Below are positions 6,132-26,124 of a stretch of DNA of 34,695 nt, one piece after another. Origin of the DNA: Alphaproteobacteria bacterium (GTDB lineage Bacteria > Pseudomonadota > Alphaproteobacteria > Thalassobaculales > Thalassobaculaceae); the NCBI GenBank assembly GCA_013203465.1, contig JABMNR010000203.1, positions 1 through 34,695 of the forward strand, read 5' to 3'. The position numbers and the translations under genes are program-made. Every line of letters begins with the position of its first letter. Position 1 is the stretch's first letter. Under the pieces are notes generated by a model. It searched no databases. It saw nothing but the letters and a program-made list of their open reading frames with translations, and had not been told where the DNA came from.

Positions 6132-7649
6132 ATGGCCTATGGTATTCACGCTCTTCCCGCCCTCGACCATCGATGCCACACCATGCTCGTCTTACTCGCC
6201 GCGGCGCCGATCCTCCTGGCCGCCCTGACCATCCTATGGGCGCGTCGTGGCGCCGCGACCGCCGGGCTCATGGGGCTGATCAGCGCGATCTTGCTCGCCG
6301 TCACGGTGTTCGACCCACGTTTCGATCTCGCCACGAGCGCGGATGTCGGGTTGCGGACGGCGCTTATCGCCGCCCCAATCCTCTACGTGCTGCTGGGCGG
6401 GGTGCTTCTATACCGTGTGCTGCAGACCGGAGGTGCCCTGGATACCCTGGCCGATCTGGTGGCGCGCACCACGCCGGATCCAGGGTTGCGCGTGCTGTTG
6501 TTGGTGTTTGGGCTCGGTGTGTTTTTCGAGTCGGCAACCGGGTTCGGGGTCGGCACCATCGTGGTGGCGCCGCTGTTCCTGGTCCTTGGATATCCGCCGG
6601 TGATGGCGGCATTCCTGGCGTTGTTGGCCCAAGCGGCGGTCCCCTGGGGAGCCCTGGCCATTGGGACCGAGCTTGGCGCCCGCCTGTCGGGCGTGCCGAT
6701 CGTCACGCTTAGTCTGTGGGCGGCAGGGTTGACGGCGCCGTTCATCGTTCTGTGCGGATGGGCCGGGCTACGCGCCGTGGGGATACACCCAACCACCGGG
6801 CGGGCGCCCTATCATCTGGCGATCACCTCGGGAACGATGATCGCCGCGATCGTGGCGACCACAGCGGCCGGCGCGCCGGAACTGGCGGGGTGCGCCGCCG
6901 GCCTCGCCGTGGTGTTGGTTTGCACCGTGATCGGCCATACCGGCGCCACGGTGAGCGGTGCGCCGGTCGACCGCCGCCAGGTCCGGGCCGCGATCCTGCC
7001 GCTCGCCGTGCTGATCGCCGCGCTGTCGATCACCCGCATGGTCCCCGAGGTGAGAGCCGTGCTGCAAGGCGTCTGGGTGCTCGCGGTACCGGTCGAGAAG
7101 TTCACCCTGTCGCCACTTCATCACCCCGGCTTTTGGTTGATCGTGGCGGCGATAGTCGCTGTTCCGGCATTGTCGCTGTCACCGCGCCGCGCGGCCGGGG
7201 CACTGGTCCAGGGTTTACGGCAATGGGTGTTCGCGGCATCGGCCATCCTGGGCTTCATCGCCATGGGCCAGGTCATGGCGGCGTCCGGCATGACCGACGC
7301 GCTGGCGGCTCCGGTGGCGTCGGCTCCCAGATGGCTCGCCACCGCGTTGGCGCCGGTGATCGGCGCGATCGGCGGTTACCTGACGGCCAGCAACGCCGGC
7401 TCCAACGCGATCTTCATGCCGTTCCAGCTCACCGTCGCGGAGATCGGCGGCATATCGACCGCGCTGATCGTCGGAGCGCAGAACGCCGGCGCCTCGATTG
7501 CCTGCCTGGCGTCGCCCGGACGGGTGGCCCTCGCCTGTCTGGTCACCGGCCAGCAAGGAGGCGAGCACGCGCTTATGAAACGCGCGCTGCCCATCGTCGG
7601 CCTCGGCTTGATCGCGATGGCGGCTTTGCTGGTGATCATCCCACGGTAA
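6132..7649 (+). CDS. lctP: L-lactate permease family transporter
   Basis: This 505-residue inner-membrane protein of the LctP family (TC 2.A.14) imports lactate, or glycolate in some members, with protons. About 12-14 hydrophobic segments run through its length. Family signatures are FFESATGFGVGTIVVAPLF near residue 135, PWGALAIGTELGARLSG, and close to the C terminus GGYLTASNAGSNAIFMPFQ followed by AQNAGASIACLASPGR. The ATG at 6132 is favoured; 6183 is an in-frame alternative at the edge of the first membrane segment, and neither has a strong ribosome site. The gene is slightly shorter than the ~550-aa E. coli homologues. It lies 1.9 kb beyond the D-lactate dehydrogenase, so substrate uptake and oxidation are near neighbours but not in one operon, because the TPR gene lies between on the other strand. 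Confidence 0.92.
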   Translation: MAYGIHALPALDHRCHTMLVLLAAAPILLAALTILWARRGAATAGLMGLISAILLAVTVFDPRFDLATSADVGLRTALIAAPILYVLLGGVLLYRVLQTGGALDTLADLVARTTPDPGLRVLLLVFGLGVFFESATGFGVGTIVVAPLFLVLGYPPVMAAFLALLAQAAVPWGALAIGTELGARLSGVPIVTLSLWAAGLTAPFIVLCGWAGLRAVGIHPTTGRAPYHLAITSGTMIAAIVATTAAGAPELAGCAAGLAVVLVCTVIGHTGATVSGAPVDRRQVRAAILPLAVLIAALSITRMVPEVRAVLQGVWVLAVPVEKFTLSPLHHPGFWLIVAAIVAVPALSLSPRRAAGALVQGLRQWVFAASAILGFIAMGQVMAASGMTDALAAPVASAPRWLATALAPVIGAIGGYLTASNAGSNAIFMPFQLTVAEIGGISTALIVGAQNAGASIACLASPGRVALACLVTGQQGGEHALMKRALPIVGLGLIAMAALLVIIPR

Positions 7650-7664
7650 TCCCACAACGCGAAA

Positions 7665-7688
7665 CGGCCGATCCCGAGGGATCGGCCG
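7665..7688 (-). terminator. Hairpin terminator between lctP and rpsD
   Basis: A perfect inverted repeat with 11-bp arms (CGGCCGATCCC and GGGATCGGCCG) around two bases lies in the 66-bp gap between the convergent ends of lctP and rpsD. Read on the minus strand it is followed by TTTCG, a short T run, so it most likely ends rpsD transcription. On the plus strand no T run follows. It could also protect both 3' ends or act in both directions. Confidence 0.7.
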
Positions 7689-7715
7689 CGCGTACGGAAA
7701 AGCTGTATCGGCTGA

Positions 7716-8330
7716 TCAGCGCGAGTAGAACTCGACCACCAGGTTCGGTTCCATCTGCACCGGATAAGGCACGTCCTCAAGCTTCGGCCGTCGGATGAAC
7801 GTACCGACCATCTTGGCATGATCCACTTCCATGTAGTCCGGCACGTCGCGCTCGTTGGACTGCACGCCGTCGAGCACCACCGGCAGCTCACGGCTCTTTT
7901 CCTTGATCTCGATGACGTCACCCTCGCGCACTTGGTACGACGGTATGTTGACCCGCTTGCCGTTCACTCGGATATGACCATGGCCGACGATCTGGCGGGC
8001 GGCGAAGACGGTCGGTACGAACTTCAAGCGGTAAACAACGGCGTCGAGCCGGCACTCAAGAATACCAATCAGATTCTCACCGGTGTCGCCCCGCCGACGC
8101 TCCGCCTCGGCGAAGTACTTGCGGAACTGCTTCTCGCCGACATTGCCGTAGTAGCCCTTGAGCTTCTGCTTGGCCATCAGCTGGATGCCGAAATCGGTCG
8201 GCTTGCGGCGGCGCTGGCCATGCTGGCCGGGACCGTATTCACGTCGGTTAATCGGGGATTTCGGGCGGCCCCAAAGGTTAACGCCCAGACGGCGGTCGAT
8301 CTTATGCTTGGCCTGCACGCGCTTGGCCAT
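7716..8330 (-). CDS. rpsD: 30S ribosomal protein S4
   Basis: This 204-residue primary 16S rRNA-binding protein nucleates assembly of the 30S body. N-terminal family sequence [17 protein letters not shown] is followed by the [15 protein letters not shown] stretch, [17 protein letters not shown], and the S4 RNA-binding domain [37 protein letters not shown]. It ends in the invariant -LVVEFYSR. The N terminus lacks the Zn-cysteine knot, as in other alphaproteobacteria. The start at 8330 has AAAGGAGAT just upstream; the frame stays open to 8444, but that extension carries no conserved sequence. The gene stands alone here, outside the alpha operon where it lies in E. coli, which is usual for alphaproteobacteria. 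Confidence 0.98.
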
Positions 8331-8531
8331 GGAGTAATCTCCTTTCTTACGTCGCGGTGTCCGCGATCTTGATGTCCCGATAGGGTCTCCGGTCGCCATC
8401 CTGGGAAAGGCCGGGCCGGGAACGCGCCCAACGGCACGCCCCACGTTCTCGGGAATGAGCGGCGGTTATACGGTTTAGCCGTAGAAAGTCAACGCGCCCG
8501 CGCCAGAGCCGGCCGGCGAAGCGTTTGAATC

Positions 8532-22128: not shown

Positions 22129-22890
22129 CTACTCCGCCGCCTCGGCACGATGACGCATCACGCCCGGCATTCCCATGCGGTCGAACAGCGCCCGGCTCCA
22201 CCGCTCAATGCTGTCGTTGAACAGCTCGAACCCCTTGATGTGGGCGCGTTTGGGTTGCGCGCCGGGGCGGGTCAGCCGGTGGGCGCCGCCCATGTTCCAG
22301 CGGTGGATCATCTCAAGCGTGATCTCGGGGTGGAACTGAAGGCCATAGGCCTTCTCGCCGACACGAAAGGCCTGGTTGGGGAACGAGTTGGTTCCGGTCG
22401 CCAACAGCTCGCCGCCCGGCGGCACCTCGAAACCCTCGCGGTGGAACTGAAAGAAGTGGGTGGCGTGTTCGAACACGCCCCCGGCCCCCGGCTCGGGAAT
22501 AATCTCGGTGTAACCGACCTCGACATGATCCGAGGGATGCGGTGTCACCACCCCTCCCAAGGCCCGCGACAGGATTTGCGCCCCCAAGCATAGACCGAGA
22601 TAGGGAATACCCGCATCCAGCACTCGCTTGGCGTGCTCGATCTCAAGCCGGATTCCGTCGAATTTCTGACAGTCGTTGGCGCTCATCGGGCCGCCGAACA
22701 CCACCACCCCGCCATAAGGCGATAGGTCACGGGGAAGGTCGTCGCCACAGCATGGCCGGCAGCGCTCAAGCGTGTAACCTCGTTCTTCCAGCAACTCGCC
22801 CACACGACCGGCGGTCGATCCCGGTTGGTGCAGGACGATCAGGATACGATCCGCGTTGCCGTTTGCCGCCGCTGGTTGTCTGACGCTCAT
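22129..22890 (-). CDS. Class I glutamine amidotransferase (GMP-synthase-like), coupled to NAPRT gene
   Basis: This 253-residue stand-alone class I (triad) amidotransferase domain has its nucleophile Cys 101 in YLGLCLGAQIL and the His/Glu pair in LQFHPEI (His 187, Glu 189). The oxyanion segment VVFGGPMSAND is present. Similar GuaA-like proteins hydrolyse glutamine or gamma-glutamyl compounds; no synthetase domain is attached. The C-terminal 60 residues (from IHRWNMGGAHRLTRPG) extend beyond the usual domain. The ATG at 22890 shares its A with the TGA stop of the upstream nicotinate phosphoribosyltransferase (TGATG overlap); a GTG at 22893 is the alternative start. Such overlap implies tight co-translation. 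Whether it supplies ammonia to a partner or acts as a gamma-glutamyl hydrolase cannot be told from the sequence. Confidence 0.88.
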   Translation of the reverse strand: MSVRQPAAANGNADRILIVLHQPGSTAGRVGELLEERGYTLERCRPCCGDDLPRDLSPYGGVVVFGGPMSANDCQKFDGIRLEIEHAKRVLDAGIPYLGLCLGAQILSRALGGVVTPHPSDHVEVGYTEIIPEPGAGGVFEHATHFFQFHREGFEVPPGGELLATGTNSFPNQAFRVGEKAYGLQFHPEITLEMIHRWNMGGAHRLTRPGAQPKRAHIKGFELFNDSIERWSRALFDRMGMPGVMRHRAEAAE

Positions 22891-24077
22891 CACTCTTCTT
22901 TCCGCAACAGGAACTCACGCCCAACCTTGACCCCTGCCGCACCATCATAATCGATGATGTCGGCGGTCGCGTAGGTCTCACTCCATTTGTCGGGGAGATA
23001 GGAGCCCGTACCGATAATGTCCACCGGTGCCTTGGCCAACGCCATGACCCGGCATTTCTGCGGCCCAAACCCCGAGGACGCGACGATCTTGACGTTGGGA
23101 AAGCCAGCCTCGTTCAAGCGCTCGCGCGTATGCCAGATCGCCGCCGCCGACACACCGGTGCCAATTAATGACCGCAGCTCGGTCTCGCTGCGATAACCAC
23201 GGATCGCTTCCGGCGCGTTGCGCTCCAGCATGCGATAGGCCTCAGGCGTATCCAGCCCCTCGACATACCGACCGCCATGAGTGTCCAGCCGGACGTTCAA
23301 CCGACCCTCGGCGGCAAGATCGGAAAACCGGTGGCAGACCGCAAGGCTATCGGTGATCTCTTGGCCGAAATAGTCGACCAGCACCGTCAGGGTCTCGCTC
23401 GGATGGGTCTCGTGAAACATCTCGGCGGCGCGCACGGTCGAGCCGGCATAGCCAACCAGCGCGTGCGGCATGGTGCCGAAGCCACGGGTCTGGCCGAAAT
23501 AATGCGCCGTCGCGTCGCTGGCGTTGCCGGTGAAACCCTTGGCCCCGACCTTCTTCTGCGCCTTGGCCGAGCCGACGCTGGCGCCGTAGGCCATGATCTC
23601 GGCCATCTCGGTCCCGGCGCAGTGCCGCGCGTCCATCGCCAGAAACGCCGTGCCGGGAAGCTCCACGCACATGGTGTAGGCGTTGTAGGCGGCGACGCAG
23701 GCCGCGCCCAGCTTCTGCAGGTACAGGGTTTCGAGGTCGACCAGATGATACAGCGAGCCGGAAATGTAGAGGATCGGCTCACCGGCGCCGACCCACGCCC
23801 CCTCCTTGTGCAGCAGTTGCACCTCGATCTCGGTCCCCCGCTCCGCCGCCATGTAGCGCAGCCACTCGATGGCCAGCCTCGGCGCGCAGGTGACCGGTCG
23901 CCGCATGAACACGGCATAAGTGACCCGCTTGTCGCCAAAGTGCTCGACGCAGCTCTTGGTGCGCGAGAAATACTTGTCGACATACCCGCCGAGATCCGCC
24001 GGGGTGGGGTGCCGGGTGGTGGTGGGCCAACGCGGCGCCACCCCCTCCCGGTCATCGTCGCGTTCGATGGCGCTCAT
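22890..24077 (-). CDS. pncB: Nicotinate phosphoribosyltransferase (archaeal-like short form)
   Basis: This 395-residue enzyme of the NAPRT/NAMPT family probably makes nicotinate mononucleotide from nicotinate and PRPP in NAD salvage. The sequence shows KYFSRTKSCVEHFGD at the N terminus, then LLHKEGAWVGAGEPILYISG and the LETLYLQKLG core helix. AMDARHCAGTEMAEIMA follows, then GFTGNASDATAHYFGQTRGFGTMPHALV, VRLDTHGGRYVEG in the phosphate-binding barrel, and KIVASSGFGPQKC/VDIIGTGSYLP. The usual TDxYxLTM start of E. coli-type PncB is missing; the YFSRTK start and short length recall the Thermoplasma-type enzymes. Its stop overlaps the start of the amidotransferase gene by one base. NadE, which finishes the pathway, is 3.7 kb away in the same orientation. 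Confidence 0.87.
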   Translation of the reverse strand: MSAIERDDDREGVAPRWPTTTRHPTPADLGGYVDKYFSRTKSCVEHFGDKRVTYAVFMRRPVTCAPRLAIEWLRYMAAERGTEIEVQLLHKEGAWVGAGEPILYISGSLYHLVDLETLYLQKLGAACVAAYNAYTMCVELPGTAFLAMDARHCAGTEMAEIMAYGASVGSAKAQKKVGAKGFTGNASDATAHYFGQTRGFGTMPHALVGYAGSTVRAAEMFHETHPSETLTVLVDYFGQEITDSLAVCHRFSDLAAEGRLNVRLDTHGGRYVEGLDTPEAYRMLERNAPEAIRGYRSETELRSLIGTGVSAAAIWHTRERLNEAGFPNVKIVASSGFGPQKCRVMALAKAPVDIIGTGSYLPDKWSETYATADIIDYDGAAGVKVGREFLLRKEE

Positions 24078-24279
24078 AGTGGAACTCTCGTCCAGGAACG
24101 CCGAGGATACCGCGCTTTACCGGGGATCGCCAAGCGCTGGCTTGGCTCGGCGGTGTCTCGTTCCGGAATCGCAAGACTGGGAGGGGGTCGGGGTGGGCGT
24201 TCGGTATTGGGGATATGACTGCCCGTTGTGAGTTGCAAGCAAGTCATTGGCCTTGGAGATGCATTTAGGCTGCTAAGTG
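24078..24279. other. Upstream region of pncB, no gene seen
   Basis: This is the left part of the 499-bp gap between pncB and the DAHP synthase gene. It carries the pncB leader and promoter region and the 7-bp hairpin at 24129-24146. Short frames on both strands lack ribosome sites or family signatures. Base composition drops from about 24230 onward, where the repeat element begins. Confidence 0.6.
24129..24146. promoter_or_regulatory. 18-bp inverted repeat upstream of pncB
   Basis: GCCAAGC-GCTG-GCTTGGC has perfect 7-bp arms and lies 51 bp before the pncB start (minus strand). It could be an operator for an NAD-pathway regulator or a leader hairpin; no T run follows on either strand. Its sequence does not match an operator I can name. 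Confidence 0.4.
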
Positions 24280-24440
24280 CCGATTGTGTTGAAAAACTCC
24301 GCAAGTCACTTTGGTTCGTAACATTTGGAACGATTGGAATGTTCCTGCGCAATGATCGCCCACAATGGCCTCGTCGGCGAATCATCGTTGCGCAAGATCA
24401 GCCTCGAAGTATCTATAACCAGCTTTTTCAACACAATCGG
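24280..24440. mobile_element. MITE-like or IS-relic element with 17-bp terminal inverted repeats
   Basis: A perfect 17-bp inverted repeat (CCGATTGTGTTGAAAAA at 24280-24296 and its complement at 24424-24440) encloses 127 bp of AT-richer sequence. The TGTTGAAAAAC-like ends resemble termini of insertion sequences in proteobacteria, though I cannot assign a family. No transposase domain fits inside; the short plus-strand frame 24228-24464 and minus-strand frames are unrecognisable. No clear target duplication is seen flanking the arms. It is best read as a non-autonomous element or internally deleted IS; a structured RNA is the alternative. Confidence 0.6.
24346..24394. repeat. Imperfect hairpin nested in the repeat element
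   Basis: Arms at 24346-24360 (TGCGCAATGATCGCC) and 24376-24394 can pair over 15 bp with a three-base and a one-base bulge, around a 15-base loop. The hairpin lies near the centre of the 24280-24440 inverted repeat, so the whole element could fold back as a nested structure in single-stranded DNA or RNA. Confidence 0.5.
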
Positions 24441-24450
24441 TCACAATCGG
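24432..24450. repeat. Tandem 9-bp direct repeat at the right end of the element
   Basis: CACAATCGG occurs at 24432-24440 and again at 24442-24450 with one base between, a 10-bp period close to one helical turn. A third copy in inverted orientation forms the outer part of the left arm (24280-24288). Only the first right copy belongs to the 17-bp arm. Confidence 0.65.
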
Positions 24451-24576
24451 CATTAAATGTTTGATCCCGGTATTTGATGGCCGGTTTACGATCCCAGTGC
24501 GGACCTTGCCGGAACCAAAGCCCGTCACCACCCCTGGCCGATCCTGACCATTCGCGTTCAAGCCGCCGCGCTCGCC

Positions 24577-25965
24577 TCAGCTCGCCTGTTTCAGCCCCAG
24601 CGCCGCGCCGTTGCGGCGGTGGCGCAGCAGCTCGGCCACCTGGAACGCCAGTTCCAGGGACTGCGACGCGTTCAGGCGCGGATCGCAGTGGGTGTGGTAG
24701 CGATCGGCCAGGGCATGCTCGGTGACCTCGCGGGCGCCGCCGATGCATTCGGTGACGTCCTGGCCGGTCATTTCGAAATGCACGCCGCCGGCATAGGTGC
24801 CCTCGACCTCGTGCACCTCGAAGAAGCCGCGCACCTCGCCGATGATCCGGTCGAACGGCCGGGTCTTGTAGCCGGTGGACGACTTGATCGTGTTGCCATG
24901 CATCGGATCGCACGACCACACCACCGAGCGGCCCTCGCGCTCCACGGCGCGGATCAGCTTCGGCAGACCTTCACGCACTTGGTCGGAGCCAAACCGGGCG
25001 ATCAGGGTCAGCCGCCCCGGGTCGTTCGACGGGTTGAGGATATCGATCAATCGGATCAGCTCGTCCGGCTCCAAGCTCGGTCCGCACTTCAAGCCGATCG
25101 GGTTGCGAATTCCCCGGAAGTACTCGACATGGGCGCCATCCGGCTGGCGGGTACGGTCGCCGATCCAGACCATGTGGGCGGCGGTGTTGAACCACCCCTT
25201 GTCGTCGGTGATGGTGTCCCGCCGGGTCAGCGTCTCATCGTAACCAAGAAGCAACGTCTCGTGGCTGGTGTAGAACTCGGTCTCGCGCAACTGCTGGACG
25301 TTGTCCGGCGAAATGCCGCAGGCGCGCATGAACGCCAGGCATTCGTCGATGCGATTGGCGACTTGCTCGAACTTCTCACCCTCCGGGCTGTCGGCGACGA
25401 AATCCAGCGTCCAGCGATGGATCTCCTCCAGATTGGCGAAGCCGCCCTGAGCGAAGGCGCGCAGCAGGTTCAGCGTTGCCGCCGATTGGTTGTAGACACG
25501 GAGCAGACGATCCGGATCCGGCACCCGATCCTGCGGCGTGAAGTCCATGCCATTGACCATATCGCCACGGTAGCTCGGCAGCTCGACGCCATCGATCACC
25601 TCGGTCGGCGAGGAACGCGGCTTGGCGAACTGCCCCGCCATCCGCCCGACCTTCACCACCGGGCACGCCGCGCCGAAGGTCAGCACCACCGCCATTTGCA
25701 GCAACACCTTGAAGGTATCGCGAATGTTGTTGGGCGAAAACTCGGCGAAACTCTCGGCGCAATCACCGCCTTGCAGCAAGAACGCCTTTCCGGCCGCCAC
25801 CTGGGCCAACTCGGCGCGCAACCGCAGAGCTTCACCGGCGAACACCAAGGGCGGAAAACTCCGCAGCGTGCCTTCGACTTCGGCGACCCGGGCGGCGTCC
25901 GGATACTCCGGCACCTGACGGATCGGCTTGGTGCGCCAGCTTGTCGGGCTCCACTCGGCGGTCAT
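24577..25965 (-). CDS. Class II 3-deoxy-7-phosphoheptulonate (DAHP) synthase
   Basis: This 462-residue enzyme condenses PEP and erythrose-4-phosphate in the first step of the shikimate pathway. It is the class II (plant/mycobacterial) type, unrelated in length to E. coli AroF/G/H. Signatures run in order: [15 protein letters not shown] with the metal-binding Cys, [33 protein letters not shown]-like [33 protein letters not shown] with metal-ligand His, [15 protein letters not shown] with ligand Glu, and [16 protein letters not shown] with ligand Asp. The start at 25965 has AAGGAGG six bases before it; the frame extends to 26094 without family similarity. It is a single transcription unit divergent from the cupin gene. 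Regulation by aromatic amino acids is known in the class, but its sites cannot be confirmed here. Confidence 0.97.
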
Positions 25966-26124
25966 GATCCCCTCCTTCGGGGTCTTGCATGGGTCATCTT
26001 GCGCGGTTCTAGCAGCCGAATTCGCTGTCTTCCAGCCGATTCGGCCTTCTTCGCGACGATGCGCCATATTGCACTGCACCAGATCGCAGGGCATCCTGCA
26101 ACGTCATTGCTTGGGGAGAGCATC

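Follow-up and report, generated by a model that had tools for sequence, protein, structure and literature searches.

What occupies the gap between two metabolic genes in this member of the Thalassobaculaceae, and how might it have arrived there? The window, a stretch of 34,695 nt on contig JABMNR010000203.1 (assembly GCA_013203465.1), contains a 499-bp gap (24078–24576) between a class II DAHP synthase gene (24577–26094, minus strand; TIGR01358 above cut-off, PF01474) and a nicotinate phosphoribosyltransferase-like gene (22890–24077, minus strand; PF02749 just at cut-off, 27.1 vs 27, with NCBIfam matches below cut-off). A preliminary description of the sequence had singled out a 161-bp segment in this gap and proposed either a MITE that depends on a partner transposase or a folded RNA. 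Our analysis indicates that the segment is very probably a MITE, related to IS1182-family insertion sequences but non-autonomous. This reading rests on its arms, on ends common to IS1182 elements, on the 4-bp duplications that flank sister elements, on the target sequence that these sisters prefer, and on the absence of the insertion in relatives.

Arms, boundaries and composition of the segment

The perfect 17-bp inverted ends noted earlier were confirmed at 24280–24296 and 24424–24440 (100% complementary, with 127 nt between them). A repeat search of the window with a 12-nt seed found no other perfect arm pair with 15 nt or more per arm at a distance of up to 400 bp. Six further inverted pairs in the window were 84–93% complementary, and five of these six were self-overlapping palindromes. 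From the base composition of the window, 0.0038 perfect pairs of at least 17 nt with a spacer of up to 400 would be expected. An inverted repeat that arose by chance in non-coding sequence would be in keeping with the single copy and with an interior that has no clear relative (see below). Against it stand the expectation of about 0.004 such pairs, the identity of the arms with IS1182 ends and the resemblance of both flanks to a target preference, and we regard its probability as negligible.

The element proper appears to span 24282–24438 (157 bp, no strand assigned), with limits deduced from the 4-bp duplications around other elements. Its perfect 15-bp terminal inverted repeats are GATTGTGTTGAAAAA and TTTTTCAACACAATC. 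Because the identical 4-bp sites of sister elements lie outside GATTGTG...CACAATC, the transposon would start at GATTG and its arms would be 15 rather than 17 bp long; the outer CC/GG of the 17-bp arms is thus best read from the sequence as target site rather than element. The left terminal inverted repeat (24282–24296, plus strand) is of the IS1182 type, being the same as one end of IS1182 elements L012, L015, L017, L024, L090 and L091 and as both ends of L026. The right repeat (24424–24438, minus strand) was located by the inverted-repeat search and a 15-mer end scan.

The segment was indeed AT-richer than its surroundings, with 47% G+C over 24280–24440, compared with 66% across the window and 59% in the remainder of the gap. 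Two open reading frames of at least 90 aa overlap the element, both on the minus strand. The first (24074–24385) had no Pfam match, and the second (24428–24919) is another frame over the end of the DAHP synthase gene that reaches the right arm only. Queries with IS1182 (two proteins) and IS1380 transposases gave chance-level matches only inside the element (best E 0.047), in agreement with the earlier statement that no transposase is encoded. In three respects the 157-bp element is as expected for a MITE: short length, terminal inverted repeats and no transposase match inside.

Ends shared with IS1182 insertion sequences

Genome contigs were scanned for exact copies of the 17-mer arm, which returned at least 119 stretches. 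Among the matches listed, with up to three mismatches allowed in the partner arm, 72 paired elements were present in 71 of 119 loci, comprising 61 short (129–222 bp) and 11 long (502–1718 bp) elements. The other 48 listed loci had no usable pair and were left out of the counts; among these 48 are L012 and L027, which pair at long distance but lie at piece edges, and which contain IS1182 transposase. A reversed-partner control gave 1 short and 1 long pairing vs 69 and 14 real ones (129 arm occurrences among the matches listed), elements with two exact arms counting twice in this comparison.

All 11 longer paired elements among the matches listed carried IS1182-family transposase sequence between their ends. 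Two representative long-element proteins both scored above the cut-off of NF033551 (curated IS1182), and four long-element proteins contained DUF772 and DDE domains. Both 15-bp arms were exact in the IS1182 elements L026, L042, L043 and L062, while seven further listed IS1182 elements had one exact arm and 1–2 mismatches in the other. The earlier impression that the ends recall IS termini agrees with these matches. Its proposal of a partner transposase is also supported, with IS1182 named as partner family from the ends rather than from an active or intact copy in the own genome. IS1182 transposase was found in the same piece (up to 8 kb) as the listed short elements in 0 of 60 loci.

IS1380 was considered as a partner and set aside: an IS1380 transposase lies near one arm at L071, but it has its own ends, ATTCCCCAAGTAG and CTACTTGGGGAAT (by eye). 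This IS1380-family element (968–2800 of L071) adjoins one arm, the sequence to its left resembles the long element class, and no right arm was found. It may have inserted into a longer-class MITE.

These comparisons also bear on whether the segment is a decayed solo IS1182 remnant, one that lost its transposase by internal deletion in situ and was never mobile as a short element. L062, from a Ramlibacter MAG, resembles such an intermediate: at 7486–7987 it is 502 bp long, with exact IS1182-type ends, a 102-aa transposase match and 4-bp sites GGCC/GGGC, and from its sequence it is a possible deletion intermediate, a step from IS to MITE. Another IS1182 remnant is also present in the own genome. 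Yet the interior of the window element matched the two IS1182 transposases only at chance level (best E 0.047, as above), and the short elements of other genomes have recurrent lengths and lie at unrelated sites, which makes in situ decay improbable.

Sister elements and their target sites

The earlier description had named copies with the same ends as support for a MITE. At least 61 such short elements occur in other genomes; the own genome has one copy only. By record titles, hosts of the short elements include Pseudomonas, Variovorax, Bradyrhizobium, Sphingopyxis, Ruegeria and Sulfitobacter. These genera belong to the Alpha-, Beta- and Gammaproteobacteria. The 61 listed short elements fell into 33 sequence clusters, and some sister elements were related to one another. 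L020 and L045 were 100% identical over 160 bp at unrelated sites on one contig with dissimilar flanks, and L057 held two copies of 99.5% identity, again at unrelated sites on one contig with dissimilar flanks. L050 and L053 had a 300-bp flank in common at 99% and, judging from this, may represent one insertion; two other pairs had short flank stretches in common.

No sister had an interior closely similar to that of the window element, the best of 61 comparisons beating 100 shuffles by half a point. Interior matches to L103, L060, L011 and L117 had scores reached by 0 or 1 of 100 shuffles, yet these too are the best of 61 comparisons. Two viral contigs carried elements with the same exact ends, L187 at 8240–8406 (167 bp) and L188 at 2588–2756 (169 bp). 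Their 4-bp sites were identical in one of the two (GACC/GACC in L187; ACCC/GCCC in L188).

The outer 4 bp were identical in 43 of the 61 listed short elements, vs 15.5 under random pairing and a maximum of 27 in 5000 shuffles. Counting one element per cluster among the matches listed, 22.6 of 33 had identical sites vs 6.3 shuffled. As the search demanded CC at the left edge, the left site is biased and the right site unbiased. The 43 identical sites were GGCC (21), AGCC (11), CGCC (8), GACC (2) and GCCC (1). Ten listed elements above 1 kb had 5 identical pairs vs 1.7 expected (chance maximum 7), a result that is weak alone.

At the window element the expected duplication is not intact. The left target position, TGCC (24278–24281, no strand), is unmatched at the right, where GGTC (24439–24442, no strand) agrees with it at 2 of 4 positions; 18 of the 61 listed sisters also had no identical pair. 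We tentatively read the missing duplication at the window copy as decay.

Beyond the 4-bp sites, both flanks of the sisters share about AAyGnCnGCTTTn, read outward. We learned a target preference from the sister flanks, with the window flanks outside the training set. The left window flank (24262–24277, plus strand) scored 4.2, in the top 0.7% of window 16-mers, and the right (24443–24458, minus strand) scored 4.9, in the top 0.5%; both are below the lower quartile of the training scores (5.3). On sequence, then, the window flanks appear to fit the family preference weakly.

Left and right target arms of the same site agreed at 6.8 of 16 positions vs 6.5 shuffled, a value reached by 416 of 5000 shuffles (among the matches listed). 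For the 43 listed elements with clean duplications, the values were 6.72 vs 6.68 shuffled. Since same-site agreement is near that of shuffled arms, the target looks like a symmetric sequence preference rather than a per-site stem, and hairpin-dependent targeting of the IS1272 kind is unsupported.

Together these features suggest how the window copy could have moved. In this scheme, an IS1182 transposase would act in trans: it would bind both 15-bp ends and then excise or copy the 157 bp. The segment would be joined at a GGCC-like 4-bp site within the symmetric preferred sequence (outward about AAyGnCnGCTTTnGGCC), and insertion would duplicate the 4-bp site. That an IS1182 transposase moved this particular copy is inferred from these ends and sites.

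Copies in the host genome and its relatives

One copy of the element was present in the own genome, an assembly of 4.48 Mb in 238 contigs. Several copies per host genome are usual for MITEs, a property that we did not take as strictly defining. A scan of this genome for the 15-mer end with up to two mismatches returned four sites: both arms, one on contig C212 where an IS1182 remnant ends, and one unrelated site. The same scan with a reversed control gave 1 match. Among 385 genomes of the class, the exact paired pattern at 142–172 bp occurred in one, namely the own genome.

A DNA search of 98 genomes, including the own, gave one other match, of 42 nt in genome G034. It was rejected as a copy, as the 350 surrounding bases contain no such arms and appear coding by reading. 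A gapped search for a shorter-end pair in 36 family genomes found one additional, divergent element in G026 (contig C2, 157722–157870; L126/L130), with TGTTGAAAAA ends and a different left outer part (GTCGAC). A plasmid search at E up to 10 matched 49 records. The 20 of these that were listed aligned to 11–17% of the query, at either element end or over the inner stem, with a best E of 0.07.

The L017 transposase matched in 14 of 36 family genomes, many of the matches being weak, with full-length matches in G030 and G035, whose ends are GATACTGTTGAAAAA and GATACTGTTGAAGAA. In the own genome, the IS1182 remnant lies right where contig C212 begins; it consists of a 44-aa C-terminal match and, after it, the end GATTCTGTTGCAAAA. 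No intact IS1182 was found in the own assembly (238 contigs), this fragment being the only one. As the contig breaks inside the remnant, the assembly could have missed an intact copy. With one copy, no intact duplication and only an IS1182 fragment in the assembly, the window copy now looks stranded.

Three DUF772 matches in the own genome appeared, from a reading of their translations, to be fragments of a different, IS5-like kind. Contigs C197 and C179 (L127, L129) begin with an identical stretch of more than 100 bp beside short DUF772 fragments, as expected for a repeated element broken by assembly.

The locus in relatives and the RNA question

We located the DAHP synthase gene in 29 of 35 family relatives, the remaining 6 having no match. 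The phosphoribosyltransferase gene lay next to it in 28 of these 29 loci; the 29th locus is cut by a contig end and had no match. The gap in the 28 loci measured 19–224 bp (to the aligned start) vs 499 bp here, and none of the 28 relatives keeping both neighbour genes had the element in it. When the 15-bp end was sought in the 29 loci, allowing up to three mismatches, two sites came up, each with 3 mismatches and both outside the gaps. As none of the 28 loci with both genes has the element, the segment most likely arrived in its own lineage, as far as sequence comparison can tell.

Subtracting the 161 bp leaves a gap of 338 bp, still above that of any relative, a point against the MITE reading. 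A 19-nt inverted repeat of 84% complementarity (24532–24713) extends across the terminus of the DAHP synthase gene and is probably due to chance.

The second, imperfect stem reported near the centre is present at 24346–24394 (no strand), with arms 24346–24360 and 24376–24394 forming 15 bp with a 4-nt bulge. Such a stem could suit a structured RNA or riboregulator in the gap between the two genes, with the terminal arms as closing stem and the nested stem as inner domain. On both strands the whole segment did form a more stable fold than shuffled sequences (z -6.4 and -5.8), which is expected of a long inverted repeat. Taken by itself, the interior had a z of -2.2, below most sisters, and strong inner folds also occurred in a few sisters of comparable length (L099 -3.8, L060 -3.6, L061 -3.4, L082 -2.3).

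Inner folds were not general, though: over 60 distinct listed short elements the median z was -0.61, with 8 of 60 below -2. The nested hairpin is therefore unsupported as a family trait, and the stem may be common to a minority of sisters. Nor did Rfam give any match up to E 1 over 24100–24600, and the arms are IS ends. The earlier description had taken conservation of a lone copy at the same locus across distant relatives as the sign of an RNA; the 28 relatives keeping both genes show no such conservation. We thus consider an RNA role highly improbable, and retain the MITE reading.

Relation to known elements and significance

Published systems were compared from the accessible portions of the sources cited. 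Among the closest are the ISMac2-derived MITEs of the archaeon Methanosarcina acetivorans, which have an IS1182 partner, sizes of 160 and 169 bp and 14 and 7 copies (PMC3852290); table columns of 26/4 and 25/0 were taken as lengths of inverted and direct repeats. They resemble the window element in partner and size but differ, by description, in their longer arms, archaeal host and multiple copies. ISPse1 of Paracoccus, an IS1182-family element of 1653 bp (IR 16/16, DR 4; PMC3281130), is by description similar in arm length and in the 4-bp duplication seen in sisters. Unlike the window element, IS1182-family insertion sequences such as ISPse1 encode a transposase.

IS1272 of Staphylococcus aureus, also of the IS1182 family, is reported to replace stem-loops without duplications (PMC5678879). 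It is similar in family and symmetric targets, whereas our sisters usually have a 4-bp duplication and target arms that agree per site hardly more than shuffled ones. In Pseudomonas syringae, MITEPsy1 has ends GGAAGGTCTGAAAAAGCC, a 4-bp duplication and CTAG or YTAA targets, and MITEPsy2 has ends like a Tn3-family element (PMC3189936). Both are likewise bacterial MITEs with IS-like ends, but the ends of both and the targets of MITEPsy1 differ from those of the window element.

We found no prior description of these proteobacterial elements in the literature searched, with most subscription papers and ISfinder outside its scope; the accessible portions of PMC10969869 and PMC2680597 do not describe them. 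As IS1182-derived MITEs of like size have already been published (PMC3852290), the kind is known and the insertion at this locus is new. Among named repeats of Pseudomonas fluorescens, R178 was rejected as the 178-bp class because it is 101 bp long (PMC2718517). The R6 repeat, at 177 bp with 34-bp repeats in the same source, is possibly a 178-bp-class element.

Only tentatively, we suggest that there is a broad set of IS1182-driven MITEs, perhaps undescribed, across Alpha-, Beta- and Gammaproteobacteria, and that the window element is one of its members. Such a set would have length classes of about 156–169, 176–178, 188–190 and 212–222 bp, one 15-bp end and one symmetric, GGCC-centred intergenic target, with transposase, end and target matched across distant hosts.

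For its own genome the element probably matters little: it is a lone copy, apparently stranded, with a metabolic gene on either side. What was an anonymous gap can now be described as a mobile element of defined extent whose partner family is named, and the comparison with sister elements supplies exact ends, a 4-bp duplication and a target preference that are usable for annotating similar intergenic repeats in other proteobacterial genomes.
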